Positions 24,925 through 57,891 of a stretch of 64,000 nucleotides of DNA are shown here, in pieces. The stretch is from Rhodococcus jostii RHA1 (lineage in GTDB: Bacteria; Actinomycetota; Actinomycetes; Mycobacteriales; Mycobacteriaceae): contig NC_008268.1 of NCBI RefSeq assembly GCF_000014565.1, positions 6,204,501-6,268,500 of the forward strand, given 5' to 3'. How positions within the stretch are numbered: the stretch's first letter is position 1; each line of letters begins with the position of its first letter. The notes beneath the pieces are model-generated. The model saw nothing but the letters and a program-made list of their open reading frames with translations, was not told where the DNA came from and did not search any database. A program made the translations under genes and the position numbers.

Positions 24925-24940
24925 TTCCCGCTGACCGGAC
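24925..24940 (+). promoter_or_regulatory. Shared element TYCCRCTGACCGRGAC, copy before iclR
   Basis: TTCCCGCTGACCGGAC, pointing toward iclR and 110 bases before its start. It is one of eight intergenic matches in the steroid locus to the same 16-base pattern (see findings). Regulator unknown. Confidence 0.5.
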
Positions 24941-24990
24941 GCGGCGATTGTCCGATTTCTTCCCCGCGGCGGGCACGGCTGGTACATTTT

Positions 24991-25005
24991 AAGAATTCAT
25001 TTCAA
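24991..25005 (+). promoter_or_regulatory. AAGAATTCATTTCAA, candidate operator before iclR
   Basis: The element sits 45-60 bases before the iclR start in an otherwise GC-rich divergent region. It matches TAGAATACATTTCAA at 45883 at 13 of 15 positions. The core GAATnnATTTC is an imperfect palindrome. Confidence 0.5.
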
Positions 25006-25050
25006 TTTTTGTCGGGCGTATGCGTGTGACCAGGATATTTGGAGGCGTCG

Positions 25051-25944
25051 ATGACTGTCGTCGATTCGGATGATGCACTGTCGGTACCCGCTGCGAAGAA
25101 GGATCTGCCACCGTCGATGGTCGAGCGGATGACGCTGATCCTCGACGCGTTCGACGGCCGCACGTCACGCCTGACCCTCGAGGAGGTCGCGTGCCGCACC
25201 CGGCTACCGCGGTCCACGGTGCACCGCATCCTCGACCAGCTGGTTCGCCTCGACTGGGTCGACCACGCCAGCTTCGGCTACTGCCTCGGACGGCGCGCGA
25301 TGGGTCTCGGCGGCGGCGACAACGGGCACAGCCAGGTCCGGGCCGCGGCGGCCCCGCTGCTGCACGACCTGCACATGCAGACCGGAATGGTGGTGCACCT
25401 GGCCGTGCTGGACGGCGCGGAGAGCGTGTACCTGGACAAGGTGGGCGGACGGATGGCCGCAAGCCTGCCGTCGCGGGTGGGTGGGCGCGTGCCCGCCTAC
25501 ACGACGGCGGGCGGCAAGGCGATGCTGGCGTGGGTCGACCCGGAGGAGGTCGACGGCATGTACGGGCCGCGGCTCAACCGGAGCACGGACCGCACGATCA
25601 CCGAACTGTCCACACTGCACCAGGAGCTCAACCGGATCCGGCAGCGCCGCGGCCTCGCGTTCGAGCGAGGGGAGGCGGTGCGCGGAATCGGGTGCGTCGG
25701 TGTCGCGGTCCGCAGCGCCGACGGGCCGGTGGCCGGCATCTCGCTGTGCGGCGACGCGCGGACCGTCCAACTCGAACGCGTCGCCCCGCTCGTCGTCGAC
25801 GCCGCCCGGGAAGTCACCCGGACGCTCCACCCCGAACTGGGAACACCCCGTCGCGGCCGCCGGACCCCGGAGATCCCGGACAGCTCGTGGTCGACCGAGA
25901 CGCTGGACCAGCTCCTCGCGGTGCAGTCCGGTCAATGGCTGTAG
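25051..25944 (+). CDS. IclR-family transcriptional regulator
   Basis: A 297-residue regulator. The N-terminal winged helix includes LTLEEVACRTRLPRSTVHRI, and the C-terminal effector-binding domain contains VYLDKVGG, PAYTTAGGKAMLAW and GIGCVGVAVRSADG, typical of IclR. The last 40 residues are a Pro/Arg-rich extension. ATG 25051 has GGAGG five bases upstream. IclR proteins control aromatic and carboxylic acid catabolism, so control of the neighbouring steroid genes is plausible. It converges on hsaB with a strong hairpin between. Confidence 0.9.
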   Translation: MTVVDSDDALSVPAAKKDLPPSMVERMTLILDAFDGRTSRLTLEEVACRTRLPRSTVHRILDQLVRLDWVDHASFGYCLGRRAMGLGGGDNGHSQVRAAAAPLLHDLHMQTGMVVHLAVLDGAESVYLDKVGGRMAASLPSRVGGRVPAYTTAGGKAMLAWVDPEEVDGMYGPRLNRSTDRTITELSTLHQELNRIRQRRGLAFERGEAVRGIGCVGVAVRSADGPVAGISLCGDARTVQLERVAPLVVDAAREVTRTLHPELGTPRRGRRTPEIPDSSWSTETLDQLLAVQSGQWL

Positions 25945-25946
25945 CG

Positions 25947-25992
25947 CCCGTGCGCGCGTAAGGAGTCTCTGGACTCGTTACGCGCGCACGGG
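25947..25992. terminator. 46-base palindrome, CCCGTG family, copy 2 (bidirectional terminator)
   Basis: Arms 25947-25961 and 25978-25992 are a perfect 15-bp inverted repeat. Inside, GAGTC (25963-25967) and GACTC (25972-25976) extend the stem, leaving a 4-base loop. It lies between the convergent iclR and hsaB genes and contains the hsaB stop codon. It aligns over its full length with the element at 33319. Confidence 0.85.
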
Positions 25993-26514
25993 TCGCGGAG
26001 CGGCGTCGAGGCCGAACCCGCCCCGGAAGAACACCATCGGCCGCTCCTCGCACACCGATTCGAGTTCCCGGACCCGTCCGATCACGACGTCGTGGTCGCC
26101 GGCGGTGTGCACCGACTGCACGTCCGCGTGCACGCGCACGAGGACCCCCGGCAGTGACGGCGTCGACCACCGCGACGGCTCCCAGGCGAGCCCGTCGAAC
26201 TTGGTGCCCCGGCTCGAGCCGAACCGGAAACAGAGGTCCGTCTGGTCCTCGCGCAGCACGTTGATCGTGAAACGCCGCGACCGCCGGATGCGCGGCCATG
26301 CCCGCCCGCGGTGATCGGCGCAGAACAGGATCAACGGCGGCTCCAGGGACACCGACGCGAACGACTGACACGTGAAACCCACCGGACCCTCGGTGTCGAG
26401 GCCGGTCACCACCGTCACTCCGCTGGCGAATTGGCCGAGGGCACGGCGCATCTCGTCCGGTGACGGTGCGTCCGAGCGTGTCCCGGACTGGGCGCCGGCC
26501 GGTTCGGTTGCCAT
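25978..26514 (-). CDS. hsaB: HsaB-like flavin reductase component
   Basis: A 178-residue flavin reductase of the HpaC/HsaB family: ALGQFASGVTVVTGLD near the N-terminus, VGFTCQSFASVSLEPPLILF and the late HDVVIGRVRELE. It reduces FMN or FAD with NADH and supplies it to the HsaA monooxygenase, which hydroxylates the phenolic ring of the opened steroid. ATG 26514 follows GGAGG. It is divergent from hsaD, with facing copies of the shared 16-base element between. It is the only reductase of this kind seen for two HsaA-like oxygenases. Confidence 0.85.
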   Translation of the reverse strand: MATEPAGAQSGTRSDAPSPDEMRRALGQFASGVTVVTGLDTEGPVGFTCQSFASVSLEPPLILFCADHRGRAWPRIRRSRRFTINVLREDQTDLCFRFGSSRGTKFDGLAWEPSRWSTPSLPGVLVRVHADVQSVHTAGDHDVVIGRVRELESVCEERPMVFFRGGFGLDAAPRPVRA

Positions 26515-26602
26515 CAGACCGCCTCCGATTGCTGTTCCGTCGCCGACCCGTTCGACGATCGTCCCCGAGGCTAGGGACGGTGCCGAACGGTCACGAGATG
26601 CC

Positions 26603-26619
26603 GTCTCGGTCAGTGGAAA
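26603..26619 (-). promoter_or_regulatory. Shared element, copy pointing toward hsaB
   Basis: Minus strand TTTCCACTGACCGAGAC, 89 bases before the hsaB start. Together with the copy at 26653 on the other strand, each divergent gene has its own element in its own direction. Confidence 0.5.
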
Positions 26620-26652
26620 TCCCCGGCCGATGCCTGCGCGAGCAGGGCGATG

Positions 26653-26668
26653 TCTCGCTGACCGGGAT
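26653..26668 (+). promoter_or_regulatory. Shared element, copy pointing toward hsaD
   Basis: TCTCGCTGACCGGGAT, ending 43 bases before the hsaD start codon. The distance is almost the same as for the copy before the second HsaA-like gene (41 bases). Confidence 0.5.
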
Positions 26669-26711
26669 CGCTTCTGTCCGAGCCGGGAGCGCGCTGGCAA
26701 CGTGACCGACC

Positions 26712-27587
26712 ATGACGACTGACTCGAGTTACGAGGGCACCCTGAAGGAGCTGAAGACCGACCTCGGCGTGCTTCGCTACCACGAGGCCGGCGACGGCCC
26801 GCCTCTTCTGCTGCTGCACGGCTCCGGCCCCGGCGTGACGGGGTGGCGCAACTTCCGCGGCAACCTCGGCGTCTTCGCCGAGCACTTCCGCACCTTCGTC
26901 CTGGAGTTCCCGGGATTCGGGGTCAGCGACGACTTCGGCGGCCATCCGATGCTCACAGCAGGCGACGCGGTGCTCCGCTTCCTCGACGGGCTCGGGCTCG
27001 ACGAGGTGGCGATGCTCGGAAACTCGATGGGCGGCATCGTCGCCACCCAGTTCGCCATCGCGCACCCCGACCGGGTCGGCAAGCTGATCACCATCGGCGG
27101 CATCGGCAGGAACCTCTTCAGCCCCGGCCCCGGTGAGGGCATCAACCTCCTGATGGAGTTCACGGACGACCCCACCCGGGAACGACTGATCGCGTGGCTG
27201 CACTCGATGGTGTTCGACCCCGCGATGGTCACCGAGGAACTGATCGAGGAACGCTGGACGCAGGCCACCGATCCCGAGACTCTCGCCAGCGCCCGCAAGA
27301 TGTACAGCAAGGCGGCGTTCGAGGCCGGAGCCCGGGCCGCACTCGAATCCGACGCGGCCCCGTACTGGGCTCAGCTGCACAAGGTGAAGGCACCGACACT
27401 GCTCACGTGGGGTCGCGACGACCGAGTCAGCCCGCTGGACATGGCGATCATCCCGATGCGGTCGATTCCCCGGGCGGAACTGCACGTGTTCCCGAACTGC
27501 GGGCACTGGGCGATGATCGAACAGAAGACGGCGTTCGAGAGTGCCGTCCTCGCCTTCCTGCTCCGCAAGGACGGCAGCGGACGATGA
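26712..27587 (+). CDS. hsaD: HsaD, meta-cleavage product hydrolase
   Basis: A 291-residue alpha/beta hydrolase. LLLLHGSGPG forms the oxyanion region, the nucleophile is S105 in GNSMGG, and D236 (or D237) in WGRDDR and H265 in NCGHW complete the triad. HsaD splits the C-C bond of the ring-opened product 4,5:9,10-diseco steroid (4,9-DSHA), giving a hexahydroindane acid and 2-hydroxyhexadienoate. First gene of the hsaD-kstD-hsaEGF-hsaA-hsaC run; its stop overlaps kstD as ATGA. The length equals that of mycobacterial HsaD. Confidence 0.92.
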   Translation: MTTDSSYEGTLKELKTDLGVLRYHEAGDGPPLLLLHGSGPGVTGWRNFRGNLGVFAEHFRTFVLEFPGFGVSDDFGGHPMLTAGDAVLRFLDGLGLDEVAMLGNSMGGIVATQFAIAHPDRVGKLITIGGIGRNLFSPGPGEGINLLMEFTDDPTRERLIAWLHSMVFDPAMVTEELIEERWTQATDPETLASARKMYSKAAFEAGARAALESDAAPYWAQLHKVKAPTLLTWGRDDRVSPLDMAIIPMRSIPRAELHVFPNCGHWAMIEQKTAFESAVLAFLLRKDGSGR

Positions 27588-29296: not shown

Positions 29297-30081
29297 TGCT
29301 GAGCGATGCGCAGCGACTGTCCGCCGCCCACCTGCTGCGGAACGCCGAACAGGACCGTGCGCCGATCGACCCGTTGACCACCGTGTTCCCGGGCATCGAC
29401 GTGGTCGACGCCTACGAGATCGCGCTGATCAACATCCGGGCGCGGCGGGAGGCGGGCGAGACGGTGTACGGCCACAAGGTCGGGCTGTCGTCCGAGGTCA
29501 TGCAGAAGATGATGGGCGTGGACGAGCCCGACTACGGACATCTGCTGTCGAGCATGGTGTACACCGAGGGGACGCCGATCGACACCGCCCGGTTCTGCTA
29601 TCCGCGCATCGAGGTGGAGATCGGTTACGTCCTCGGCGAGACCCTGCCGGGGGAGGGGTGCACCGAAGAGGACGTGCTGGCGGCCACCGAATACATCGTT
29701 CCCAGCATCGAACTGATCGACTCCCGAATCACGGACTGGAAGATCGGCCTCGCCGACACGATCGCCGACAACGCGTCCTCGGCAGGCGTGATCCTCGGCG
29801 CCGGACGGGGGGAGCCGGCGAACGTCGACATCGGCGGGATCTCCGCCGTGCTGTTCCAGGGCGAGGAGGAGATCGCGCGGGGTGAGGCGTCGGCGGTGCT
29901 CGGCAATCCCACGAAGGCCGTGGCCTGGCTGGCCCGGAAGGTCGCGAGCTTCGGAGTGCGACTCGAGGCCGGGCACGTGATCCTTCCCGGCTCGTGCACC
30001 CGCGCGATCGACGCCCGGCCCGGTGACGTGTTCCGCGCCGATTTCAGTGACATCGGTTCCGTATCAGTAGAATTCAAGTGA
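29296..30081 (+). CDS. hsaE: HsaE, 2-hydroxypenta/hexa-2,4-dienoate hydratase
   Basis: A 261-residue hydratase of the MhpD/HsaE family. [32 protein letters not shown] and the [10 protein letters not shown] metal-site segment are conserved. It hydrates the dienoate released by HsaD to 4-hydroxy-2-oxohexanoate. ATG 29296 shares its A with the kstD TGA; GTG 29293 is an alternative. The last residues overlap hsaG. Order hsaE-hsaG-hsaF is the standard C5/C6 fragment module. Confidence 0.92.
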
Positions 30082-30995
30082 AGGCGACAACTGTGACCAA
30101 GGCTCTCGCCGCGATCGTCGGATCCGGCAACATCGGCACCGACCTGCTGTACAAGCTCCTCCGCTCGGAGATCATCGAGCCCCGCTGGATGATCGGCGTC
30201 GACCCCGACAGCGAGGGACTGAAGCGCGCCGCGGACCGGGGTGTGATCGCCAGCGCCGAAGGCGTCGACTGGCTGCTCGCCCAGGACGAGCGCCCCGACA
30301 TCGTCTTCGAGGCCACGTCCGCCTACGTGCACCGGGCGAACGCCCCCCGCTACCGGGAACTTGGCATCCAGGCCGTCGACCTCACCCCCGCCGCGCTCGG
30401 ACCCGCCGTCGTGCCCGCCGTGAACATGGGCGAGCACCGGACCGCGCCGAACGTCAACCTCATCACGTGCGGCGGCCAGGCGACCATCCCGATGGTGTAC
30501 GCCGTCTCCCGGATCACCGAGGTGGCGTACGCCGAGATCGTCGCCAGTGTGGCGTCGCCGTCCGCAGGCCCGGGCACCCGCGCGAACATCGACGAATTCA
30601 CGATCACCACGAGCCGGGGCATCGAGACGATCGGCGGGGCGAAGAAGGGCAAGGCGATCATCATCCTGAACCCGGCCGAACCGCCGATGTTCATGAAGGA
30701 CACCGTGTTCTGCTCCATTCCCGCCGACGCCGACCGGGACGCGATCACCGCGTCCATCCACGACGTCGCGGCGTCCGTGCAGGCGTACGTCCCCGGCTAC
30801 CGACTGCGCGCCGAACCGCAGTTCGACGACCCGACGCCGATCAGCGGTGGCCTCGCCCGGGTCGGCATCTTCCTCGAGGTCGAGGGCGCGGGCGACTTCC
30901 TGCCGCCCTACTCCGGCAACCTCGACATCATGACCGCCGCCGCCACCAAGGTCGGCGAGAGTTTCGCGACGCAGATCCTCGGCGCGAGCGTCTGA
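30078..30995 (+). CDS. hsaG: HsaG, acylating acetaldehyde/propionaldehyde dehydrogenase
   Basis: A 305-residue NAD-dependent enzyme. [20 protein letters not shown] is the NAD site, the catalytic Cys lies in [12 protein letters not shown], and [14 protein letters not shown] closes the family signature. It converts the aldehyde channelled from HsaF into acyl-CoA (propionyl-CoA in steroid degradation). GTG 30078 overlaps the hsaE stop; GTG 30093 is possible. HsaF follows after 35 bases; the two form one complex. Confidence 0.93.
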
Positions 30996-39885: not shown

Positions 39886-40677
39886 CTAACGGCGGCCCAG
39901 AAGTTTCCGCATTCCCTCGGCAGCCCCGCGCACCAGGGTGTCGCGGGGGAAACCGCTACGCTTGCGGGCCGCGTCGTAGTTGCCGCCCGCCACCCAGACC
40001 GGCCCGTCGGCGATGTGTGCGAGCCCCTCACGGGCAACGTCTTCGGGTTCGGCGACGTTCATTCCGGGAAGATCGAAGTTCAGGCCCGCCCGGACCATCG
40101 CAGGCGTGCGGGTGACGCCGAGGACCAGTTCGACCACGTGGACGCCGAACGGTGCGAGTTCGAGCCAGAGGCTTTCCGCGAAGATCCGGCCGAACGCCTT
40201 GGATGCGGCGTAGATGCTCTGGTCTTCCGAACCCAGGTACCCGGCCAGCGAACCGACCAGCACGATGCCGCCGCGGCCGCGGTCCTTCATCCTCGCACCG
40301 AAATGCTGCGACAGGTGCAGCTGAGAGGTGATGTTCAGGTCGATGACGCGGTGGAAGCCGGCGAGGTCTCCGCTGACGAACTCGTGTCCGTAACTGTTGG
40401 CTCCGGCGTTGAAGATCATCAACCCGACCTCGACGTCGTCGGTGGCCGTGCGGATCCGGTCGAGGGCGTCCGGATCGAGAAGATCGAGCGCGAGTGTGCG
40501 CACCAGGACGCCGTGGGCACGGACCTTGGCCGCGGTCTCCTCGAGCGGCCCGGGTTTGCGGGCGATCAGCACGAGGTTGATCGCCGCGCGGCCCAGCTCC
40601 TCGGCGAAACTCGCGCCCACACCCTCGGAGCCGCCTGCGATCACGGCCCACGGCCCGTAGCGCTCGGTGTCGATCAT
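39886..40677 (-). CDS. Short-chain dehydrogenase in the kshA operon
   Basis: A 263-residue SDR with a variant nucleotide loop (AGGSEGVG), IARKPG suggesting NADP, FNAGANSYG, a Ser in LVGSLAGYLG and YAASK. ATG 40677 has GGAAGG upstream. It is the third gene after kshA and the small zinc-ribbon protein, 22 bases downstream of the latter. A hydroxysteroid dehydrogenase role for ring hydroxyls before or after 9-alpha-hydroxylation is likely. Confidence 0.8.
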   Translation of the reverse strand: MIDTERYGPWAVIAGGSEGVGASFAEELGRAAINLVLIARKPGPLEETAAKVRAHGVLVRTLALDLLDPDALDRIRTATDDVEVGLMIFNAGANSYGHEFVSGDLAGFHRVIDLNITSQLHLSQHFGARMKDRGRGGIVLVGSLAGYLGSEDQSIYAASKAFGRIFAESLWLELAPFGVHVVELVLGVTRTPAMVRAGLNFDLPGMNVAEPEDVAREGLAHIADGPVWVAGGNYDAARKRSGFPRDTLVRGAAEGMRKLLGRR

Positions 40678-40699: not shown

Positions 40700-40954
40700 T
40701 CAGTGGGCGGCGACGGGCGTCGGGACGGGGTCGGGATCGCGCACCGGGACGGCACCCTCTTCCGCGGCTCGGGTGATCGACGCCGTCAGCGCCGCGCATT
40801 CTTTACGGGGAGCGCCAGGGCGCCCCGGTCCCGCACTGCCGATCTCGCGGCACCGGGCTCGGGCTGCGTCGTCCCACTGAACGGAAGTGTGTTCCCAGCT
40901 GTTCTTCCGGACCAGGACGCTCGCGCCGCACTCAGTGCACTGCAGCGGTTGCAT
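40700..40954 (-). CDS. Small zinc-ribbon-like protein between kshA and an SDR
   Basis: An 84-residue protein beginning MQPLQCTECGASVLVRKNSW. C6 and C9 form a CxxC knuckle, and C35 and C53 could complete a metal site. The segment HTSVQWDDAARARC follows the knuckle, and the tail is Pro-rich. ATG 40954 lies inside the last 23 bases of kshA, so translation is coupled. I recall short proteins with a CxxC and an HTS-QW segment near oxygenase genes in mycobacteria, but no role is known; an accessory to KshA is a guess. Confidence 0.7.
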   Translation of the reverse strand: MQPLQCTECGASVLVRKNSWEHTSVQWDDAARARCREIGSAGPGRPGAPRKECAALTASITRAAEEGAVPVRDPDPVPTPVAAH

Positions 40955-42095
40955 CGGCTTCGCGCGCCTTTCGTGCGAGGTTCTCTTCCACTTCCCGCTT
41001 CCACGACTCGACCGGCCGGGTGGTGTCGAGTTCGAACTCGAACCGCTCGGTCATTTGCGGGGTCACCGCATCGACGTCGACGTAGAACTGCTCGTACCAC
41101 CGTCGCAGCTGGTAGACCGGGCCGTCCTCCTCACACAGGAGCGGATTCTCGATGCGGGTCTTGTTCTTCCAGATCTCGATGTCCTGCTCGAAACCCTTCG
41201 CGATGAACGTGCCGAAACTCTTCGCCATCTCGGTGGCCGCCTCGCCGTCGAGTTCCTTCGACTTCTTGACGATGATGCCGTACTGCAGCACGAACTTGTC
41301 GGCGCTGACGGGGTAGTGGCAGTTGATCAGCACGGAGTCGACATCGTGCGTCTCGTAGCGGTACGTCAGGTCGTCGACCATGAACGAAGGTCCGAAATAC
41401 GTAGCATCCGAGCGACTTCCGAGCATGCGGGGCTGTCCCGACGCGTGCGGGCGCATGTCGTCGCGGGCCTGGCCGCGCATGAACTGGCTGGCGACGTGGC
41501 CCTCGAAGACGTTCTTGAAGTAGGTGGGGAACGAGTAGTGCACGTAGAAGAAGTGCGCCATGTCGACGATGTTGTCGACCACCTCGCGGCAGTTGGTGTC
41601 GACCGTGGTCCGGTACCAGACCCAGTCCGTCCACTCGTCGTCGAGTGCGCCGTCGATGCGGGGAATCGTGACGTCCACGGGCGGCGGATTGCCCTCCGGA
41701 TCGTTCCACACGAACAGCATCCCGTCCTGGTCGAGCGCGTGCCACGACCGGGTCCGGGCGAGCGGCGGAACCCGGCGTGCGTACGGAATCTTCTTGCACC
41801 GGCCGTTGCTTCCCCACCGCCAGTCGTGGAACGGGCACGCCACCTCGTCGCCTTTGACCGTGCCCTGGCTGAGGTCGCCGCCCATGTGCCTGCAGTAGCC
41901 GTCGAGCACGGTGAGATCGCCCGCACTGTCGGCGAAGACGACGAGCTTGGTCCCGAACGCTTGCACGGAATGGGGCTTGCCGTCCCGGAATGCCTCGGAC
42001 AATCCGATGCAGTGCCATCCACGGGCGAATCGGGTGGGCGCTGCGCCCGCGTCGATTTCGCGTACCTCGACTGTCTCGGACTGTTGGGTGGTCAC
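40932..42095 (-). CDS. kshA: KshA, 3-ketosteroid 9-alpha-hydroxylase oxygenase
   Basis: A 387-residue Rieske oxygenase. The 2Fe-2S cluster ligands are C68, H70, C87 and H90 (CRH then CPFH, 16 residues apart). The mononuclear iron site includes H181 and H186 in DMAHFFYVHY, with N175 or D178. It hydroxylates C9 of 1,4-diene-3-keto steroids, which opens ring B. GTG 42095 begins VTTQQSETVE. Its reductase partner KshB is not in this window. The gene is divergent from the second HsaA-like gene. Confidence 0.92.
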   Translation of the reverse strand: MTTQQSETVEVREIDAGAAPTRFARGWHCIGLSEAFRDGKPHSVQAFGTKLVVFADSAGDLTVLDGYCRHMGGDLSQGTVKGDEVACPFHDWRWGSNGRCKKIPYARRVPPLARTRSWHALDQDGMLFVWNDPEGNPPPVDVTIPRIDGALDDEWTDWVWYRTTVDTNCREVVDNIVDMAHFFYVHYSFPTYFKNVFEGHVASQFMRGQARDDMRPHASGQPRMLGSRSDATYFGPSFMVDDLTYRYETHDVDSVLINCHYPVSADKFVLQYGIIVKKSKELDGEAATEMAKSFGTFIAKGFEQDIEIWKNKTRIENPLLCEEDGPVYQLRRWYEQFYVDVDAVTPQMTERFEFELDTTRPVESWKREVEENLARKAREADATAAVH

Positions 42096-42169
42096 GATGC
42101 GTCCCGTCCTCTCCTGGGCTTGTGCGGTGCCCTGCACGCTAAGTGAGCGTGGACGGCGCGCATCGCGTT

Positions 42170-42186
42170 GTCCCACTGGACGGGAC
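42170..42186 (+). promoter_or_regulatory. Shared element, weaker copy in the kshA/hsaA-like divergent region
   Basis: GTCCCACTGGACGGGAC matches the 16-base consensus at 13 positions and is itself an imperfect palindrome. It lies 75 bases before kshA and 77 before the HsaA-like gene, so it could serve either. Confidence 0.4.
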
Positions 42187-42203: not shown

Positions 42204-42221
42204 TTTCCCGTTGAGCGAGAC
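42204..42221 (+). promoter_or_regulatory. Shared element, copy pointing toward the second hsaA-like gene
   Basis: TTTCCCGTTGAGCGAGAC ends 41 bases before ATG 42263, nearly the same distance as the hsaD copy. Confidence 0.5.
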
Positions 42222-42262
42222 GCACATCCACACGCGGGTGTGATCGCCCTACCCTCCGACAG

Positions 42263-43429
42263 ATGACGAACGAGGTCCTGGGATCGGTCCGCGGCCTGCT
42301 GCCGATGATCGCGGAACGCGCGGACAAGGTCGACGAGTCGCGGCGGGTGTCCGAACAGGTGATCCGTGAGCTCGGCGACGCCGGAATGTTCAAGATGCTG
42401 CAGCCCAGGCGGTACGGCGGCACGGAAAGCAATCCGGTGCACTTCTACGAGGTGGTGCGCGCCGTGTCCGGTGTGTGCGGTTCGACGGGTTGGCTGGCGT
42501 CCGTGCTCGGTGTGCACCCGTGGCACCTGGCGCTGTTCGACGACCGGGCGCAGCGGGACGTGTGGGGCCACGACGATTCGGTACTCGTGTCGTCCGCCTA
42601 CGCACCCGTCGGGCGGCTCGTTCCGGTCGAGGGCGGTTACCGGCTGACAGGGGACTGGCATTTCTCCTCGGGCTGCGAGCACGCGTCGTGGGCGCTGCTC
42701 GGCGCGATGGTGGTCGGGACCGCGGGCCGCCCGGTCGATTTCATGACCGCGCTGGTGCCGCGGTCGGACTACCGCATCCACGACGTGTGGGACGTGGTGG
42801 GGATGCGCGGCACCGCCAGCAACGAGATCAGCGCCGAGGACGTGTTCGTTCCCGACTACCGGATCAAGAGGAACTACGAGACGGCGCAACTGCGCGGACC
42901 CGGGCAGAAGGTGAACCGGGGACCGTTGTACCGGCTGCCGTTCGCCACGCTCTTCACCACCACCGTCGCGGCGCCGGGGGTCGGTGTCGTCGCGGGGTGC
43001 TACGAACGCTACTTGACGTTCATGCGGGAACGAGTGCGGCTCAGCCTCGGTGGCGGCCGATTCGTCGACGACCAGTTCGCCCAGGTCGCGGTGGCCCGGG
43101 CGTCGTCCGAGATCGACGCCGCGATACTGCAGATGGATCGCAACGTGCGTGAACTGTGGGAACTGGCCGAGGCCGGGGAGGAACTCCCCATGGGTCTGCG
43201 TCTGCGGGTGCGCCGCGATCAGGTTCGCGCCACCGAGCGAGCCCTCGACGCGATCGACCTGCTGTTCAAGACCGCCGGCGGGAGTTCGCTGTCGCGCGGC
43301 AACGCGATCGAACGGTCGTGGCGCGACGCCCACGCGGGCAGCGTGCACGTGGCCAACGAGCCCGAACGCGCCCTCGCCCTGTTCGGCAGGGGCGCGTTCG
43401 GGCTCCCGGTGGAGGACAACCTCGTGTAG
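42263..43429 (+). CDS. Second HsaA-like flavin-dependent monooxygenase
   Basis: A 388-residue paralogue of the HsaA encoded at 32130. It keeps MLQPRRYGGTESNPVHFYE, CGSTGWLASVLGVHPWHLAL, GDWHFSSGCEHASW and the terminal ERSWRDAHAGSVHVAN, but many other positions differ. It may hydroxylate a differently substituted phenolic intermediate, for example one with a ring C hydroxyl, using HsaB for reduced flavin. ATG 42263 lacks a strong ribosome site. Its stop abuts the stop of the convergent kstD copy. Confidence 0.85.
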   Translation: MTNEVLGSVRGLLPMIAERADKVDESRRVSEQVIRELGDAGMFKMLQPRRYGGTESNPVHFYEVVRAVSGVCGSTGWLASVLGVHPWHLALFDDRAQRDVWGHDDSVLVSSAYAPVGRLVPVEGGYRLTGDWHFSSGCEHASWALLGAMVVGTAGRPVDFMTALVPRSDYRIHDVWDVVGMRGTASNEISAEDVFVPDYRIKRNYETAQLRGPGQKVNRGPLYRLPFATLFTTTVAAPGVGVVAGCYERYLTFMRERVRLSLGGGRFVDDQFAQVAVARASSEIDAAILQMDRNVRELWELAEAGEELPMGLRLRVRRDQVRATERALDAIDLLFKTAGGSSLSRGNAIERSWRDAHAGSVHVANEPERALALFGRGAFGLPVEDNLV

Positions 43430-45058: not shown

Positions 45059-45073
45059 TCCCACTCACCGGAC
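45059..45073 (+). promoter_or_regulatory. Shared element, copy before tetR
   Basis: TCCCACTCACCGGAC, 79 bases before the tetR start and pointing toward it. It differs from the consensus at one central base and lacks one G near the end. Confidence 0.42.
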
Positions 45074-45152
45074 GAAATTCGATGCTTTCCCGATCCAATG
45101 CGAGAATCGACACCGGATCCGGGGCTGTGTGCGGAGTAAAGGGGGATCGAGG

Positions 45153-45764
45153 GTGCCGAGAATCGCCGAAGTGCGGGACGCTGCCGAACCGAGTTCGGAG
45201 GAACAGCGGGCCCGCCACGTCCGCATGCTCGAGGCCGCGATCGAACTGGCCACCGAGAAGGAACTCGCCCGGGTCCAGATGCACGAGGTGGCCAAACGCG
45301 CCGGCGTCGCGATCGGGACGCTGTACCGGTATTTTCCGTCGAAGACGCATCTGTTCGTCGCCGTGATGGTCGACCAGATCGACCGGATGGGTGTCGGGTT
45401 CAAGAAGAGCGCGCCCCCCGGCGAATCGCCGCAGGATGCGGTGTACAACGTGCTCGTCCGCGCCACCCGCGGTCTGCTGCGACGGCCCGCACTGTCCACC
45501 GCGATGATCCAATCCACGAGCACCGCCAACGTCGCGTCCGTGCCGGACGCGGGGAAGGTCGACCGGGCATTCCGGCAGATCATGCTGGACGCCGCCGGGA
45601 TCGAACATCCGACGGAGGAAGACCTCACGGCACTGCGTCTGCTGGTGCAGTTGTGGTTCGGTGTCATCCAGTCCTGCCTCAACGGCCGGGTCTCGATTCC
45701 CGATGCCGAGTCCGACATTCGTAGGGCGTGTGACCTGCTGCTGGTCAATCTGTCGCATCGCTGA
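45153..45764 (+). CDS. KstR-like TetR-family regulator
   Basis: A 203-residue TetR protein. The DNA-binding part VQMHEVAKRAGVAIGTLYRY FPSKTHLFVA closely follows KstR, the steroid regulator of mycobacteria and rhodococci, while the ligand domain is diverged. A regulator of this bile-acid-type locus responding to a CoA intermediate is the natural reading. GTG 45153 follows GGGGGA by six bases. Two candidate operators lie between it and the fadA5-like operon. No classical KstR box was found in the window, so its site probably differs. Confidence 0.85.
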   Translation: MPRIAEVRDAAEPSSEEQRARHVRMLEAAIELATEKELARVQMHEVAKRAGVAIGTLYRYFPSKTHLFVAVMVDQIDRMGVGFKKSAPPGESPQDAVYNVLVRATRGLLRRPALSTAMIQSTSTANVASVPDAGKVDRAFRQIMLDAAGIEHPTEEDLTALRLLVQLWFGVIQSCLNGRVSIPDAESDIRRACDLLLVNLSHR

Positions 45765-50908: not shown

Positions 50909-51723
50909 ATGACGTCACCCGGCCGTTTCGAGAACAAGGTCGTCTTCGTCACCGGCGCGGCGCGTGGGCAGGCCGCGCCGAGGCCGTCCGGTTCGCGTCC
51001 GAGGGCGCCGACGTCATCGCGATCGACGCCTGCACCGAATTCGCGTCCACCGCCTATCCCGGCGCCACCCAGGACGACCTGGCCGAGACGGTCCGGCTCG
51101 TCGAGTCCACCGGGCGGCGGATCGTCTCCGCCACCGCGGACGTGCGCGATTTCGAGGGCCTCTCGCGGGCCCTCGCGGACGGCATCGAGCAGTTGGGCCG
51201 CCTCGACGTCGTGATCGCGAACGCGGGCATCTGCTCGGGTGCGTTGTCGTGGGAGATCACCGCCGAGCAGTGGCAGGAGACGGTCGACGTCAACCTCACG
51301 GGAACGTTCCACACCGCGAAGGCGGCGGTTCCGTATCTGATCGAGCAGGGTGAGGGCGGCGCCGTCGTTTTCACCAGTTCGGTGTCCGGGCTGAAGGGCA
51401 CGCCGTTCACGGGGCACTACGTCGCCACCAAGCACGGCATCACCGGGCTCGCGAAGACGATGGCGAACGAACTCGGTGAGTACCGCATCCGCGTCAACAC
51501 GGTGCACCCGGCGGGCGTGGACACCGGCATGAAGGTGCGTGACCTGCACCCGCTCATCGCCCGGTACGCGTCGACGCTCGGCTCCATCTACCAGAATTCG
51601 CTGCCCTACCGCATCACCCAGCCGGAGGACGTCGCCGCCGTCGTCGCGTGGGTGTGTTCCGACGAGGCGAAATACATCACCGGGGCGCAGATTCCAGTCG
51701 ATCTCGGCAACCTCATCCGCTGA
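50909..51723 (+). pseudogene. Mycofactocin-type SDR broken by a one-base frameshift
   Basis: ATG 50909 opens MTSPGRFENKVVFVTGAARG Q, then the frame is lost. In the next frame the protein continues with RAEAVRFASEGADVIAIDAC, the mycofactocin-type insert TAYPGATQDDLAETVRLV, VIANAGICSG, Ser in VVFTSSVSG, YVATK and a normal end at 51723. Restoring one G in the GG at 50971-50972 (GGCAGGGCCGC expected) rejoins both parts into a full-length SDR of about 271 residues. It is either a sequencing error or a recent inactivation. All catalytic residues downstream are intact. Last gene of the fadA5-like operon. Confidence 0.85.
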
Positions 51724-51805: not shown

Positions 51806-53467
51806 TCAGACGGTGATGTCCCGGCGGACCATCTTGCCGGTTGCGTTGCGGGGCAACAGGTCGGTGGTGATCCGCCAGCGGGTAGGGACCTTGAAATACG
51901 ACAGGCGATCCGCGGCGTACTCGCGCAGTTCCGCCTCGGTGGCCGCGGCACCCGGTCGCAACACCACGACGGCCGCCACCTCCTGCCCCAGATCCTCGTG
52001 GGGCGTCCCGATCACCGCGCACTCGAGCACCTCCGGGTGCTCGTCGAGGCACTGCTCGATCTCGGTGGGATACACGTTCTCCCCGCCGCGCAGGATCAGA
52101 TCCGAGCGACGTCCGGTCAGCCGCAGGCGACCGTTCTCGACGAGTCCGTAGTCGCCGGTCCGGAGCCACCGGCCCGGGGCGATCGCCGCGGCGGTGGCGG
52201 CCTCGTCCTCCCAGTAGCCGAGCATCACGAACGGGCTGCGCACACACACCTCACCCTCGACGCCGTCGGGCAGCCACTCCCCGTACGGGTCGCGGATCTC
52301 CATGCTCACCGTGATGATCGGACGGCCCAGAGTGCCGGGGAACTGTTCGAGTTCGGGGGCGGTGGCGACGGCGATCGCGGTACTGCACTCGGTGAGTCCG
52401 TAACTGTCCACGAGGGCGTTGCGCGCGAACGGCACCTTCTCGCGCAGCCGTTCCTTGAACGCGACCGACGACGGTGCGGACGCCAGCGAGAACGACGTGA
52501 GCGACGACAGGTCGTACTTGTCGAGGTCGTCGTGTTCGACCAGACGGGACGCCATCGTGGGTACCGCTCCCCAGTTGGTGACCCGTTCCCGCTCGACGAG
52601 GCGGAGCACGGCGTCCACGTCGAATCCGCCCTGGTGCATGACGACCGCGCCGCCCGTCGCAAGCCGCGGAATCACCAGATTGTGCAGGCTCGCGATGTGG
52701 AACAGGGGAGACGTCAGGAGGTAGCGAAGCGGACTCGGCACCGCCGGATCGACAGGGCGTCCACTGAACTCGCCGACCACCGCGTCGCTGAACCGGTGGT
52801 AGTCGACGACGGCCAGAATGTTGCGCTGAGAGTGCAGCGCTCCCTTGGGCCTGCCGCTCGTGCCGCTGGTGTAGAGGATGGCGGCGGGATCGTCCTCGTC
52901 GACGTCGGTGTGCGGCATCGGGGACCCTGCGTACCGCGCGAAGAGCGCAGGCAGATCCTCCTCCATCGTGAGGACCGGGAGGTCGGTGCCGACCGCGGCG
53001 AGTGTCTCCGCGCGCTTCGCGTCGGCGACCACCACGGTGGGGCGACTATGCGTCAGTCCGTACTCGACCTCCCGCGGAACCCACCAGCCGTTCAACCCTA
53101 CGCTGATGGCGCCGAGCACCTGCGTGGCCCAGAACGCAACCACCCACTCGGGGGTGTTCGCGGCCAGGATCGCCACCCGGTCACCCTTCCGGACGCCGTA
53201 GTCCTCGCGCAGCGCCGTCGCCAGGGCCGCGACCGCGGCGGCGTGCTCGGTGTAGGACATGCGGCGATCGGCGGTCACGAGGTAGTCGCGGTCGCCCCAC
53301 CGGAGCGACGTGGTGAGGAGCTCGCCCACCGACCGCCCACGGTTCTTCATCACCGGCATCCGGGTGCCGAGCACCGGCTCCTCGACGAGTTCGAACCGGC
53401 CACCGGGTCCGGTGAGGCGGGACATCACCTGATCCAGGTGCAACTGTGGATCTGTAGGGGCAGTCAT
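51806..53467 (-). CDS. Acyl-CoA synthetase (steroid acid CoA ligase candidate)
   Basis: A 553-residue ANL-family ligase. The P-loop is [16 protein letters not shown], the adenine motif SYGLTECS, the hinge [19 protein letters not shown] and the terminal Lys in [10 protein letters not shown]. It activates a carboxylate with ATP to the CoA ester. The locus suggests the side chain of a bile acid; CasG-type ligases of R. jostii do this for cholate, but which family member this is cannot be decided by eye. ATG 53467 begins MTAPTDP. Divergent from the reductase gene. Confidence 0.87.
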
Positions 53468-53540
53468 CGGGGCGACCTTTCGTCCTCGGGCACTCGTACC
53501 GACACAAGATGGCACGCCGTGACGGGCGCCCGGACGTGGT

Positions 53541-53557
53541 TACCACTCAGCGAGACT
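53541..53557 (+). promoter_or_regulatory. Shared element, copy before the old-yellow-enzyme gene
   Basis: TACCACTCAGCGAGACT carries the 16-base pattern with two changes in its centre, 64 bases before ATG 53622 and pointing toward it. No copy points toward the divergent fadD. Confidence 0.42.
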
Positions 53558-53621
53558 GCCGCGATCCGTGACATCCCGGCGCCGTTACGTTCGACAGCGA
53601 ATCGCAGCTGGAGGAACTCAT

Positions 53622-54815
53622 ATGACGATAGATCTCGACCCGCCCGCAGTGAAGGTCGATCCGCTCGCCCCGGCCAAACTCGGGCCGATCACCCTGCGCA
53701 ATCGTGTGATCAAGGCAGCGACGTACGAGGGCCTGACCCCGAAGGGGCTGGTCACCGACGAGCTCATCGAATTCCATCGGCAGCCCGCCGCCGGAGGCGT
53801 GGGCATGACGACCGTCGCGTACTGCGCGGTCGCCGCGGATGGACGCACGTCGCCCGGCCAGATCCAATGGACCGACGAGACGATGCCGGGTCTGCGGAAG
53901 CTGACCGACGCCATCCACGCGGAGGGTGCCGCAGTGTCGGCGCAGATCGGCCACGCGGGACCGGTCGCGGCCGCGAAGTACATCGGATTCCCGGCCTTGG
54001 GCCCGTCCCGCGCGTTCCGGGTGACCACTCAGAACTTCTCCAAGCCGGCCTCCACGGCAGACATCGCCCGGATCGTCGAGGCTCACGCCAACGCGGCTCG
54101 CCGCGCGGTGGAGGCGGGGTTCGACGCCGTGGAGATCCATTTCGGCCACAACTACCTGATCAGCTCCTTTCTCAGCCCGAAGGTCAACAAGCGCACGGAC
54201 CGGTACGGCGGATCGCTGGCGAACCGCGCCCGGTTCGCGCTCGAGACCGCCCGCGCCGTCCGCGACGCGGTGGGGGAGCGGATCGCGATCCTCGCCAAGC
54301 TGAACATGGACGACGGTGTGCCCGGGGGCTTCTGGGTGGACGAGGCCATCCAGGTGGCGCAGTGGCTCGAACAGGACGGTTCGCTGGACGCGCTCGAGCT
54401 CACCGCGGGCAGTTCGCTGCTGAACCCGATGTACCTGTTCAAGGGCGACGCGCCGCTCCGCGAGTTCGCCGCCGTCATGCCGCAGCCGACGAAACTGGGA
54501 ATCCGGTTGGTCGGCAGGCACTTCCTGAAGGAATACCCCTACCGCGACGCCTACCTTCTCGAGGACGCCCGCCAGATCAGGGCCGCCGTGACGATGCCGC
54601 TCGTCCTCCTCGGCGGCATCACCGGCAAGGCGACCATGGACCTGGCGATGGCGGAAGGCTTCCAGTTCGTGGCCGTCGCACGGGCACTCCTGCGGGAACC
54701 CGACCTCGTCAACCGGATCACGGACGAGACCCACAACCCCGGTCTGTGCATTCACTGCAACAAGTGCATGACGGCGATCTACGGTGGCACCCACTGCGTG
54801 CTTCGCGTGCCGTGA
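53622..54815 (+). CDS. Old-yellow-enzyme reductase with C-terminal Cys cluster (BaiCD-like barrel)
   Basis: A 397-residue FMN TIM barrel of the NADH:flavin oxidoreductase family: FDAVEIHFGHNYLISSFLSP and NKRTDRYGGS are diagnostic. The C-terminus has Cys at 376, 379, 382 and 392, like the iron-sulfur site of 2,4-dienoyl-CoA reductase and BaiCD/BaiH, but the FAD domain of those enzymes is absent. It may reduce a ring double bond left after dehydration of a hydroxysteroid; that is inference. ATG 53622 follows GGAGGA. It heads an operon with an acyl-CoA synthetase and a luciferase-like gene. Confidence 0.86.
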   Translation: MTIDLDPPAVKVDPLAPAKLGPITLRNRVIKAATYEGLTPKGLVTDELIEFHRQPAAGGVGMTTVAYCAVAADGRTSPGQIQWTDETMPGLRKLTDAIHAEGAAVSAQIGHAGPVAAAKYIGFPALGPSRAFRVTTQNFSKPASTADIARIVEAHANAARRAVEAGFDAVEIHFGHNYLISSFLSPKVNKRTDRYGGSLANRARFALETARAVRDAVGERIAILAKLNMDDGVPGGFWVDEAIQVAQWLEQDGSLDALELTAGSSLLNPMYLFKGDAPLREFAAVMPQPTKLGIRLVGRHFLKEYPYRDAYLLEDARQIRAAVTMPLVLLGGITGKATMDLAMAEGFQFVAVARALLREPDLVNRITDETHNPGLCIHCNKCMTAIYGGTHCVLRVP

Positions 54816-54841
54816 GCGTGCATACCGCGTCGATAGGAGAG

Positions 54842-56509
54842 ATGGAGTTGGAACGCACCACGATCGCCCGGATGCTGTTCGACCGGCTGGGCGACGACAG
54901 GCTGGGAGTGCGCACCCGGGAACAGGATTGGACCTGGGACGAGGTGGTGCGCGAGAGTGCGGCCCGCGGCGCCGTCGCGTCCTCGCTGCGGCGCGACGGA
55001 CCGTTCCACGTCGGCGTCCTGCTCGAGAACACCCCCGAGTTCCTGTTCTGGCTGGGCGGCGCGGCGCTCGCAGGCGCCGCCGTCGTCGGCGTCAATCCGA
55101 CCCGCCGCGGCGCGGAACTCGAGGCCGAGATCCGGTACGTCGACTGCCAGCTGATCGTCACGGACACCGCGGGGAAGGCGCAGCTCGCCGGTCTCGACCT
55201 CGGGCTGTCCGAGGACCGGTTTCTGCTCGTCGACGATCCGGCCTACACCGAACTCGTCGCGGCCCACGCCGTGGAGAGCCCGGCCGAGGATCCCGGAATC
55301 GACGCGTCGACGCTGTTCCTCCTGCTGTTCACGTCCGGCACCACCGGCACGTCGAAAGCGGTGCGGTGCAGCCAGGGCCGGCTCGCCCGGCTGGCGTACG
55401 CGAACACCGCCAAATACGGGCACGTGCGCGAGGACGTCGACTACTGCTGCATGCCGCTGTTCCACGGCAACGCGCTGATGGCGCTGTGGGCGCCCGCCCT
55501 CGCCAACGGCGCCACCGTCTGCCTGCCGCGCAAGTTCTCCGCCTCCGGATTCCTGCCCGACGTCCGGTTCTTCGGCGCCACGTTCTTCACCTACGTCGGC
55601 AAGGCGCTGGCGTACCTGATGGCCACACCCGAGCAACCCGACGACCGTGACAACACGCTCGTCCGCGGTTTCGGGACCGAGGCGTCCCCGGAGGACAAAA
55701 CCGAATTCGTCCGCCGGTTCGGCGCCGAACTGTACGAAGGGTACGGCTCGAGCGAGGGCGCCGGTTCGGTGACGCTCGATCCCGACGCCCCCGAGGGTGC
55801 GCTCGGCAGACCCGCGAACGAGAACATCGTCATCGTCGACCCCGACACCCGCGTGGAGAAGGCCCGGGCGCGACTCGACGAGCACGGTCGCGTGCTCAAC
55901 CCGGACGAGGCGATCGGCGAAATGGTCGACAAGGCAGGCGCGTCGCGGTTCGAGGGCTACTACAAGAACGAGGACGCGATCGCCGACCGTATCCGGCACG
56001 GCTGGTACTGGACGGGCGACCTCGGGTACGTCGACGAGGCCGGCTTCATCTACTTCGCCGGCCGGAAGGGTGACTGGATTCGGGTGGACGGGGAGAACAC
56101 CTCGGCGTTGATGGTGGAGCGCATTCTGCGGCGCCACCCGAAAGTGGTCGCCACCGGCGTGTTCGCCGTCCCGGACCCGCGGTCGGGTGATCAGGTGATG
56201 GCGGCCGTCGAGGTGGCGGACCCCACCGATTTCGATCCGGCGGAGTTCGCAGCGTTCCTCGGTAACCAGGACGACCTCGGCACGAAGGCTGCACCGCGCT
56301 TCGTCCGGGTGTCGAGGGACCTGCCGGTGACGGGATCGAACAAGGTGCTCAAACGCACGCTGCAGGAACAGCGCTGGCGTTGCGACGATCCGGTCTTCCG
56401 GTGGGTGGGACGCGGTGTTCCCGAGTACCACGAGATGACCGACAGTGAGAAGGCCGTGCTGGAGCAGGAGTTCCACACGCACGGCCGGCAACGATTCCTG
56501 CACGTGTGA
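54842..56509 (+). CDS. FadD17-like acyl-CoA synthetase
   Basis: A 555-residue ANL ligase. LFLLLFTSGTTGTSKAVRCS is the P-loop, GYGSSEGAGSVTL the adenine motif, YFAGRKGDWIRVDGENTSAL the hinge, and SNKVLKRTL the terminal Lys region. KFSASGFLPDVRFFGATF and FVRRFGAELYEGYGSSEG resemble mycobacterial FadD17, a ligase for short steroid side chains; CasI of R. jostii has that activity. ATG 54842 is only two bases from AGGAG; GTG 54812 (overlapping the previous stop) and TTG 54848 are alternatives. Confidence 0.87.
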   Translation: MELERTTIARMLFDRLGDDRLGVRTREQDWTWDEVVRESAARGAVASSLRRDGPFHVGVLLENTPEFLFWLGGAALAGAAVVGVNPTRRGAELEAEIRYVDCQLIVTDTAGKAQLAGLDLGLSEDRFLLVDDPAYTELVAAHAVESPAEDPGIDASTLFLLLFTSGTTGTSKAVRCSQGRLARLAYANTAKYGHVREDVDYCCMPLFHGNALMALWAPALANGATVCLPRKFSASGFLPDVRFFGATFFTYVGKALAYLMATPEQPDDRDNTLVRGFGTEASPEDKTEFVRRFGAELYEGYGSSEGAGSVTLDPDAPEGALGRPANENIVIVDPDTRVEKARARLDEHGRVLNPDEAIGEMVDKAGASRFEGYYKNEDAIADRIRHGWYWTGDLGYVDEAGFIYFAGRKGDWIRVDGENTSALMVERILRRHPKVVATGVFAVPDPRSGDQVMAAVEVADPTDFDPAEFAAFLGNQDDLGTKAAPRFVRVSRDLPVTGSNKVLKRTLQEQRWRCDDPVFRWVGRGVPEYHEMTDSEKAVLEQEFHTHGRQRFLHV

Positions 56510-56522
56510 CGGTGAGGGTGAC

Positions 56523-57410
56523 ATGAAACTGGGTGTGGTGGTTCCCGTCGAGCTGGGAGGGGCGGGCGAGCCCGAGTGGATACTCGAATTCGCGAGGGCC
56601 GCCGAATCACTCGGATTCGACGAGATCTCCGCGGTCGAGCATTCGGTCGTCATCGCGGACACGGCGAGTGCCTATCCGTACTCGCCCACCGGCAAGTCGC
56701 ACCTGCCCGACGACTGCAGCCTGCCGGACCCGCTGGAACTGCTGTCGTTCGTCGCCGGCGCCACGACGACCCTCGGTCTCGCGACGGGCGTGCTGGTGCT
56801 GCCCAACCACCACCCGGTGGTGCTGGCGAAGCGTCTCGCCACCCTGGACCGACTGTCCGCTGGGCGTCTGCGCATCTGCCTCGGTCTCGGCTGGATGCGC
56901 GAGGAGATCGAGGCCTGCGGCGGCGACTTCGACCGGCGCGGCGCGATCGCCGACGAGGCGATCGCGGTGATGCGGGCGCTGTGGTCAGGTACCGCCGCGG
57001 TCGACTTCGCGGGCGAACACTTCTCCTTCCGCGGCGCCCAGAGCTGGCCCAAACCCCACCGGGATTCGGGAGTGCCGCTCTACATCGGCGGACACAGCCC
57101 GGCGGCCGCACGGCGGGCAGGGCGGCTCGGCGACGGGTTCCAGCCGCTCGGCCTGGCCGGTGACGACCTGGACCGGGCGATCGCCCGGATGCGGGCGGCG
57201 GCAGCGGACGCCGGCCGCGATCCCGCCGACGTCGACCTCGTGCTGGGTGCCACGCTGCCACGGCTCGACGAGGCCAAGCTCGACCGAAGCCGGGACCTGG
57301 GCGCGAATCGGCTCGTGCTGTCGGTGTCCCGGCACGCGCAGTCCCTCGGCCAGGTCATCGACGAGATGGCCGCCTGTTCGGCGCGGTTGGGCCTCAGTCC
57401 GGCACGGTGA
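56523..57410 (+). CDS. Luciferase-like (LLM) oxidoreductase, second copy
   Basis: A 295-residue TIM barrel of the luciferase superfamily (F420-type TIGR03619 subgroup): RAAESLGFDEISAVEHSVVI, LATGVLVLPNHHPVVLAKRL, GRLRICLGLGWMREEIEACG and VPLYIGGHSPAAARRAG. It is a diverged paralogue of the gene at 23953. Both are paired with an NTF2-like gene, which suggests two parallel steps of the same chemistry. ATG 56523 has GAGGG upstream. Its 3' end overlaps the convergent NTF2-like gene by 17 bases. Confidence 0.85.
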   Translation: MKLGVVVPVELGGAGEPEWILEFARAAESLGFDEISAVEHSVVIADTASAYPYSPTGKSHLPDDCSLPDPLELLSFVAGATTTLGLATGVLVLPNHHPVVLAKRLATLDRLSAGRLRICLGLGWMREEIEACGGDFDRRGAIADEAIAVMRALWSGTAAVDFAGEHFSFRGAQSWPKPHRDSGVPLYIGGHSPAAARRAGRLGDGFQPLGLAGDDLDRAIARMRAAAADAGRDPADVDLVLGATLPRLDEAKLDRSRDLGANRLVLSVSRHAQSLGQVIDEMAACSARLGLSPAR

Positions 57411-57834
57411 CCGGCACGTCCTCGCTGAAGTCGACGATCAGTTCGCGCCGGGAGAACTGCCAGCCTGTGTCGCCGAGCACGTACCGGTCGTGGTAGCGCA
57501 ACGCGATCCGGTTGTCGCGGAATCCGTTTCGACCGGCATAGACGTGGTGCGCCGTGCAGTACGTCTCGCCCGACGCCGTCGACCCGCCCACGTCGATCAC
57601 CTGCTGGTGAACGACGTGGCGGGTGGACTGCAGATGCGAGACCGCGTCCACGACGGCGGACGCGAGCACGTCACTGCCGCGGAGTTCCGTTGCCGCGCCG
57701 GTGCCCGTCAGCGCGGGCGGGAGGACGAACGTCGCGTCGGAGTCGAACAACGCCGCGAGCGTCGCCGCCTCGCGCCGGTCGACGGCCCGCGCATAGCGGG
57801 CGGTGAGTTCGGTGAGAGCGAATCCGGTGGCCAT
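57394..57834 (-). CDS. NTF2/SnoaL-like protein, second copy
   Basis: A 146-residue NTF2-fold protein: TARYARAVDRREAATLAALF contains Y14 and D19 in the same spacing as Y31/D36 of the copy at 23474, and RHVVHQQVIDV supplies candidate His. The end is acidic. It could be a dehydratase or isomerase acting on a steroid CoA ester or ketone. ATG 57834 begins MATGFALTEL; an upstream GTG would add nine residues. It is divergent from the igr-like operon and overlaps the convergent luciferase-like gene. Confidence 0.78.
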   Translation of the reverse strand: MATGFALTELTARYARAVDRREAATLAALFDSDATFVLPPALTGTGAATELRGSDVLASAVVDAVSHLQSTRHVVHQQVIDVGGSTASGETYCTAHHVYAGRNGFRDNRIALRYHDRYVLGDTGWQFSRRELIVDFSEDVPVTVPD

Positions 57835-57874
57835 TCCACCATTCCAGCGGACACGCGGCATCGGCGACAGCCGC

Positions 57875-57891
57875 CTCCCGCTGACCGAGAC
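57875..57891 (+). promoter_or_regulatory. Shared element, copy before the igr-like operon
   Basis: CTCCCGCTGACCGAGAC, 82 bases before ATG 57974 and pointing toward the operon. It matches the consensus fully apart from the first base. Confidence 0.5.

Follow-up and report, generated by a model that had tools for sequence, protein, structure and literature searches.

The stretch of Rhodococcus jostii RHA1 DNA considered here, 64,000 nucleotides that we call the window, carries a set of genes that fits a cholate cluster, and for that reason we presume it to be one: casG for a steroid-24-oyl-CoA synthetase (NF052580, 1012 bits, cut-off 750), hsaA (NF045629, 643 bits, cut-off 450), a kshA-like gene whose protein contains the KshA C-terminal domain, and hsaB-, hsaD- and kstD-like genes whose proteins score under the curated cut-offs. 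Two regulator genes lie among them, one of the IclR family (HTH_IclR, 44.5 bits, cut-off 22; IclR_C, 119.7 bits, cut-off 24) and one of the TetR family. Gene limits are those of our own codon-based gene caller, except that the start of tetR was shifted to 45132, the point from which its orthologues align. A short element recurs at the divergent promoters of this presumed cluster, and an earlier note on this DNA proposed it as the site of an undescribed regulator, with the products of the two regulator genes as candidates. What is this element, and which protein might read it?

The note had described a 16-base sequence that is not a palindrome. The real unit is a 15-bp odd-centred palindrome, approximately TCYCRSTSASYGRGA, with two 7-base arms around one base. 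At this centre, 41 of 70 arm pairs are complementary over ten sites of the window, where base composition would give 28%, and other candidate centres reach 6-26 of 70, so that the symmetry exists at one centre only. Even in the note's own eight sites, picked regardless of symmetry, 33 of 56 pairs are complementary (again 28% expected). That list holds in part: several of its coordinates are off by one or two bases, and it overlooked two sites, at 21845 (between a short-chain dehydrogenase/reductase (SDR) gene and camM) and 40872. From 254 sites that lie outside the opacus/jostii clade we built a palindromic matrix, whose consensus is TCCCGCTCAGCGGGA. The motif has TC/GA as outer bases, S at the centre and, at the sixth position, C (0.49) or G (0.36).

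Form matters when one counts. Searched as TYCCRCTGACCGRGAC with up to three mismatches, the 16-mer matches seven of the eight noted places (24926, 26603 on the minus strand, 26653, 42171, 42206, 53541 and 57876) and leaves 45059 unmatched, which by its letters has four; it is only mildly enriched, at 20 matches against 8.6 ± 2.9, a number reached in 1 of 100 shuffles. The matrix, on the other hand, finds seven matches in the window, all within its 5,101 intergenic bases and none in 58,899 coding bases, whereas elsewhere in this genome 13 segments of 20 kb each (260 kb, two of the segments flanking the window) give one match in 51,899 intergenic and one in 208,101 coding bases (Fisher p 3e-7), a test that is not fully independent because the 254 sites were chosen by an earlier matrix containing window sites. 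The claim that all listed sites are intergenic holds if tetR starts near 45132, as the orthologues indicate. The strict matrix misses the weak copies at 24926, 42171 and 45059, whose support is conservation in relatives. When the palindrome is relaxed to TCNCRNTSANCGNGA, 109 places match in the genome, whose four contigs add up to 9,702,737 bases (7,804,765 of them in the largest), against 8 for its control, and with so many places loose matches say little by themselves. These loose counts, together with the mild enrichment of the 16-mer, are what could be said for a chance likeness or an effect of composition; matrix enrichment, conservation and the −10 register contradict it, and we give it almost no credence.

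The earlier note was right that this is not the known KstR box: KstR-like sites (TNNAACNNGTTNNA, at most one mismatch) occur five times in the window against 5.0 expected, without enrichment, and the KstR2 box (AAGCAAGNNCTTGCTT, at most three mismatches) does not occur there at all. The idea of an undescribed regulator is partly supported, in that the element is a shared regulatory site of the steroid locus belonging to neither KstR nor KstR2; the promoters served differ from those first named, and a closely similar motif, Lcin1, is already in print for the corresponding cluster of Nocardioides simplex (in the accessible text of PMC7593942).

Elsewhere in the genome, the pattern TYYCRSTSASYGRRA leads to further genes. 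It has 11 places against 1 for the reversed control, and four of the 11 are in the window. One of the others precedes a kshA-like gene (61% to the window's), followed by hsaA-like (402 bits, cut-off 450) and hsaC-like (369 bits, cut-off 450) genes and an IclR paralogue (43%), and it is through places such as this second kshA/hsaA/hsaC-like operon that the site can flag more genes. Another is flanked on one side by a 4-hydroxybenzoate 3-monooxygenase gene (582 bits, cut-off 351) and on the other by an IclR-family gene. A third (C1:6122221) precedes the gene of an FAD-binding protein of the PRK07121 family (989 bits, cut-off 812); its N-terminus suggested KstD, the KstD models score far under their cut-offs, and it is not clearly a steroid enzyme. 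Two places (C1:3031740 and 7195680) fall inside coding sequence, and for two more (6651736 and C2:563949) we found no explanation.

Conservation of the putative operator extends to the promoters of orthologous genes and, in other families of actinobacteria, to the surroundings of genes related to the linked IclR gene. In eight Rhodococcus genomes we looked at 143 sequences upstream of 24 window genes, and the palindrome recurs at the orthologous SDR/camM, luciferase-like/iclR, hsaB/hsaD, kshA/hsaA, kstD/tetR and casG/old yellow enzyme regions and before the acyl-CoA dehydrogenase operon. The conservation that the earlier note would have looked for is present, if not everywhere: some of the eight genomes lack the palindrome at some places, the 40872 site is present in only two of the eight, and nothing above threshold was found in them upstream of 33397, 36739, 38044, 39091, 51142 and 19134. 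Farther out, 72 of 80 stretches around IclR relatives (the best 80 of 341, coding and intergenic matches pooled) carry a palindrome of at least 16.5 bits, in genera that include Rhodococcus, Nocardia, Microbispora, Nonomuraea, Geodermatophilus, Actinomadura and Saccharopolyspora; the eight without one are L104, L109, L115, L123, L133, L135, L137 and L138. Between hsaB and hsaD (26604-26667) the spacing of the two palindromes is 49-50 bp in Rhodococcus; elsewhere it is about 40, 52, 58-59, 69-70 or 83 bp, and the values often come close to a whole number of helical turns. We note also that one locus, L080, from a record titled Kitasatospora arboriphila, has almost the gene and site layout of Williamsia muralis L079, and by position it corresponds to G544, which is assigned to the same family as the window; the record is probably mislabelled.

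The palindrome keeps a set distance to a second element. We took 386 noncoding palindromes of at least 14.5 bits from 107 loci, which after removal of near-duplicates gave 594 orientations, and in 116 of them (3.5 expected) a TANNNT word begins at a distance of 37-39 nt from the centre of the palindrome: 45 at 37 nt, 44 at 38 and 27 at 39, with every other offset at 6 or fewer. A set of 19 loci from 17 genera (two each for Blastococcus and Nocardia) shows it too, with 40 of 161 where 0.8 would be expected, as does the window by itself, with 5 of 20 against 0.14. The consensus of this −10-like box is TASSKT. A −35 box is missing from the computed picture: TTG stands at a −35 position in 1 of the 116 boxed orientations against 3.8 in shuffles, and no position in the span between box and palindrome carries much information. 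On the assumption that the −10 begins at −12, the palindrome centre falls near −50; with no −35 box present, this is where an activator would be expected to sit. That is, a fixed operator place upstream of the −10 with no −35 box would be a class II-like, activator-dependent promoter layout, and the element as a whole is a real, conserved design of predicted operator and promoter.

Table 1. Palindromes and candidate regulators of the window; distances run from the palindrome centre to the −10 or −10-like box
Feature	Position	Strand	Context
Palindrome TCTCGGTGAGTGGGA	21845..21859		between SDR gene 20761-21696 (minus) and camM-like MFS gene 21932-23404 (plus); weak −10 CAGGTT, 37 nt, toward camM
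Weak palindrome copy	24926..24940	−	−10-like TACAAC, 37 nt, toward luciferase-like gene 23953-24849 (box by eye); none toward iclR
IclR-family regulator, proposed palindrome reader	25117..25944	+	nearest NCBIfam model PcaR/PcaU/PobR, 123 bits, cut-off 285
Palindrome for hsaB-like gene 25978-26514	26604..26618	−	−10 TAGCCT at 26568-26573, 38 nt
Palindrome for hsaD-like gene 26712-27587	26653..26667	+	weak −10 CAACGT at 26698-26703, 38 nt
Palindrome TCCCACTGAACGGAA	40872..40886		upstream of SDR gene 39886-40677 (minus); no −10 in useful direction
Weaker palindrome for kshA-like gene 40932-42095	42171..42185	−	−10 TAGCGT at 42136-42141, 37 nt
Palindrome for hsaA gene 42263-43429	42206..42220	+	−10 TACCCT at 42250-42255, 37 nt
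Weak palindrome for tetR	45059..45073	+	−10-like GAGAAT at 45102-45107, 36 nt
TetR-family regulator related to KstR, rival candidate	45132..45764	+	124 bits, cut-off 280
Palindrome between casG 51806-53425 (minus) and old-yellow-enzyme gene 53622-54815 (plus)	53541..53555		−10 TACGTT, 38 nt, toward old-yellow-enzyme gene; CATCTT, 37 nt, toward casG
Palindrome for acyl-CoA dehydrogenase operon from 57974	57876..57890	+	−10 TAGCGT at 57920-57925, 37 nt

The box sets direction (Table 1). The earlier statement that each copy points toward its gene largely survives, with two changes: the copy at 24926 fits the luciferase-like gene rather than iclR, and that at 42171 fits kshA on the minus strand. 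Its distances of 43 and 41 bases to the start codons of hsaD and the hsaA-like gene are correct. Strict −10 boxes follow the palindrome at hsaB in 30 of 70 cases, at kshA in 20 of 28, at hsaD in 15 of 69, at the old-yellow-enzyme gene in 4 of 4 and at hsaA in 4 of 21, and, among orientations without a labelled gene downstream, in 13 of 170. After the box, ATG or GTG triplets are most frequent at 13 nt from its first T (13 of 39 in the span examined, though these may not be start codons), and the hsaA gene starts 50 nt from the palindrome centre, with hsaB and kshA mostly farther; the peak and the hsaA start together suggest that some genes have leaderless mRNA. We also considered whether iclR is autoregulated through 24926, and this is unsupported: strict boxes occur in 0 of 37 cases toward iclR, and no weaker NANNNT peak stands in register in that direction.

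Some observations belong beside these features. The TetR protein matches a solved structure, 3bjb (3e-130, 434.6 bits), which is annotated only as a probable TetR regulator. The SDR gene called at 51142-51723 lacks the N-terminal part of its profile (the match runs from position 56 of 236), whether by a wrong start, a truncation or a frameshift. At another locus, L195 (G003:C4:180000-192000), an IclR paralogue (45%) adjoins a kshA-like gene, and at 5508-5522 of that locus a weak variant palindrome, TCCCGTTGTCCGGGA (minus strand), has TACCGT 38 nt from its centre: the same register with changed arms.

Which of the two linked regulators, then, reads the palindrome? For the TetR-family protein one can say that its gene is conserved with the cluster, that a palindrome stands upstream of it and that relatives of KstR are steroid-responsive repressors; it might read the palindrome, probably as a repressor. 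When stretches were tallied by hand for an intergenic palindrome of at least 15 bits, however, those with IclR and no TetR had one in 15 of 34 cases, those with TetR and no IclR in 0 of 7 and those with both in 5 of 7 (p 0.03, for related loci which, like the 15-bit cut, we chose ourselves). Five genomes with no TetR hit at 1e-33 (G077, G536, G658, G664 and G682, in a check that scored only about ten candidates per genome) keep strong palindromes beside their IclR genes, and in G664 the −10 boxes lie at 37 nt from the palindromes of the IclR stretch. A fixed place near −50 without a −35 box also suits an activator, and we regard TetR as an unlikely reader.

A second line of evidence comes from outside steroids. 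Of 28 Rhodococcus genomes, 20 contain a pobA-type palindrome, which adjoins pobA in 16 of the 20 fetched loci; all 16 have NANNNT 38 or 39 nt toward pobA, and 13 of the 16 have a detectable pobR-like gene, which by gene order would be hbaR1. The window IclR, its paralogue and the pobR-like gene share the same nearest NCBIfam model, PcaR/PcaU/PobR, each under its cut-off. It is the stretch comparison and this same geometry at pobA, where the neighbouring IclR-type regulator is an established activator in R. opacus, that lead us to favour IclR over the linked TetR as the probable reader; of the two proteins named at the outset, the evidence leans to IclR, as an activator.

Could both act, IclR activating and TetR repressing through the same or overlapping sites? 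Both genes do travel with the cluster, and a palindrome lies in the intergenic region before each. Against this, a five-base dyad search of the TetR upstream regions gave no dyad common to more than seven sequences and none plausible as a second operator, and double occupancy is without positive evidence; joint action seems to us improbable. Two other comparisons proved uninformative. The co-occurrence of IclR and TetR did not discriminate in 396 genomes of the phylum (3 and 12 hits) or in 31 far genomes, and palindrome counts per genome vary between genera independently of IclR.

Several points weigh against IclR as an activator through these sites, and they should be told together. The 34-versus-7 comparison is small, and its TetR-only set includes L246, of only 1,719 bases, and L207, a distant relative; 19 of the 34 IclR stretches have no palindrome. 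TetR co-occurs with IclR: 30 of the 31 far genomes have TetR at 51% identity or more, and IclR is present in 83 of the 84 family genomes that have TetR (overlap counted by eye). Three genomes of genus g248 (G464, G488 and G519) have both regulators and no strict palindrome, which may reflect divergence of the operator. At pobA the boxes are weak, and the genomes that carry them are related. Strict −10 boxes are rare or absent at tetR (1 of 33), kstD (1 of 19), casG (0 of 14), the luciferase-like gene (0 of 35) and hsaE (0 of 10), as at iclR; weaker boxes in register occur at tetR (NANNNT at 36 in 10 of 33), at casG (NANNNT at 36, 37 and 38 in 3, 5 and 4 of 14) and, by eye, at the luciferase-like gene (TAGAAC-like words at 37-39). 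Finally, genus g253, with no IclR at 1e-45, has 5-16 palindromes per genome, and L247, with neither IclR nor TetR, still carries one. Palindromes in genomes without IclR, and in L247, are what one would expect of a promoter element without a bound protein, or of a site for a regulator whose gene lies in another place. A sigma factor does not read two-fold symmetry 37-39 nt from a −10, and the linkage to IclR in 72 of the 80 stretches (around the best 80 of 341 relatives) argues against either version, which we hold to be very improbable.

The motif itself can be set against what is described for the family. The IclR group-1 motif, GKTYCRYW3-4RYGRAMC (from the portion of PMC8222616 available to us), is a palindrome of odd or even centre; the odd-centred window motif resembles it in the arrangement of the core, YCR....YGR. 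The window motif departs from it in the outer bases (TC/GA, not GKT/AMC) and at the sixth position, often G, which is one more point on the opposing side; its centre is S where that of group 1 is W. The word "steroid" has no occurrence in the main text of that paper.

Weighing all this, we give a probability of about 0.7 to the whole reading, namely that the palindromes would be operators of the IclR-family protein encoded at 25117-25944 and that this protein would activate the cholate genes. An IclR dimer would bind the 15-bp palindrome, and the operator would be centred near −50 of a promoter with a −10 and without a −35 box; the protein, once bound and probably carrying a metabolite of bile-acid or ring degradation, would recruit RNA polymerase, and this recruitment would turn the genes on. 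The palindrome, its conservation, its register and the lack of a −35 box come from computation; the binding of IclR rather than TetR, the activation and the nature of the effector we infer. A broader proposal we would put at even odds: that one IclR-type activator drives bile-acid degradation in actinobacteria, its 15-bp operator at a fixed −50 replacing the −35 box and some promoters being leaderless, with the same register at pobA suggesting that actinobacterial IclR activators share this promoter layout in general. The question is a practical one. The cholesterol pathway of Actinobacteria is under the repressors KstR and KstR2, and the control of the separate bile-acid cluster is left open in the accessible parts of PMC7593942, which calls for further research on it, and of PMC8228715; an operator, a register and a candidate activator make that control directly testable.

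How does this system compare with those already described? Like the boxes of KstR and KstR2, the window sites would be palindromic operators on Rhodococcus steroid genes. Those boxes read TNNAACGTGTTNNA and AAGCAAGNNCTTGCTT (PMC8228715, in the text we had) and are unenriched in the window, and the same source describes KstR and KstR2 as steroid-responsive repressors. It also places a palindrome near the kshA1 and kshA2 promoters of R. ruber and postulates for these two genes a regulator that was not known.

The 15-bp palindrome itself is not new. A closely matching motif, Lcin1, TCCCGGT[C/G]ACCGGGA, was predicted in 2020 before lithocholate-induced genes of N. simplex VKM Ac-2033D; its authors tentatively name a linked regulator, KR76_18060, which adjoins KR76_18065, the counterpart of ro05794 (all from the available portion of PMC7593942). 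Counting from camM as ro05792, ro05794 is the luciferase-like gene beside the window's iclR, and by this gene order KR76_18060 would be the IclR orthologue. Lcin1 and the window motif have in common a 15-bp palindrome with C or G at the centre, before operons of the corresponding cluster that include a kshA gene. Some far loci carry exactly TCCCGGTCACCGGGA (L117); the agreement of RHA1 with Lcin1 is approximate, and the window sites stray further from perfect symmetry. The description of Lcin1, in the part of PMC7593942 at hand, is without a −10 register, the absence of a −35 box or a factor family. In the literature that we searched, which lay outside subscription papers, we recognised no report of an IclR protein controlling these genes, and as far as that search reaches, what is new is the 37-39 nt register, the absence of a −35 box and the argument for a probable IclR activator.

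The closest parallel in regulation is HbaR1 and pobA in R. opacus PD630, where, according to the accessible text of PMC9582017, deleting the IclR-type hbaR1 beside pobA abolishes pobA promoter activity and deleting the TetR-type hbaR2 does not. The two systems differ in substrate (4-hydroxybenzoate rather than steroids) and in the palindrome, which at the pobA loci compared here is TTTCACTSAGTGAAA; the accessible text names no binding site for HbaR1. They resemble each other in that an IclR-type activator serves, or in our case would serve, catabolic genes, and in that the pobA palindrome of related genomes likewise lies 38-39 nt from a −10-like box.

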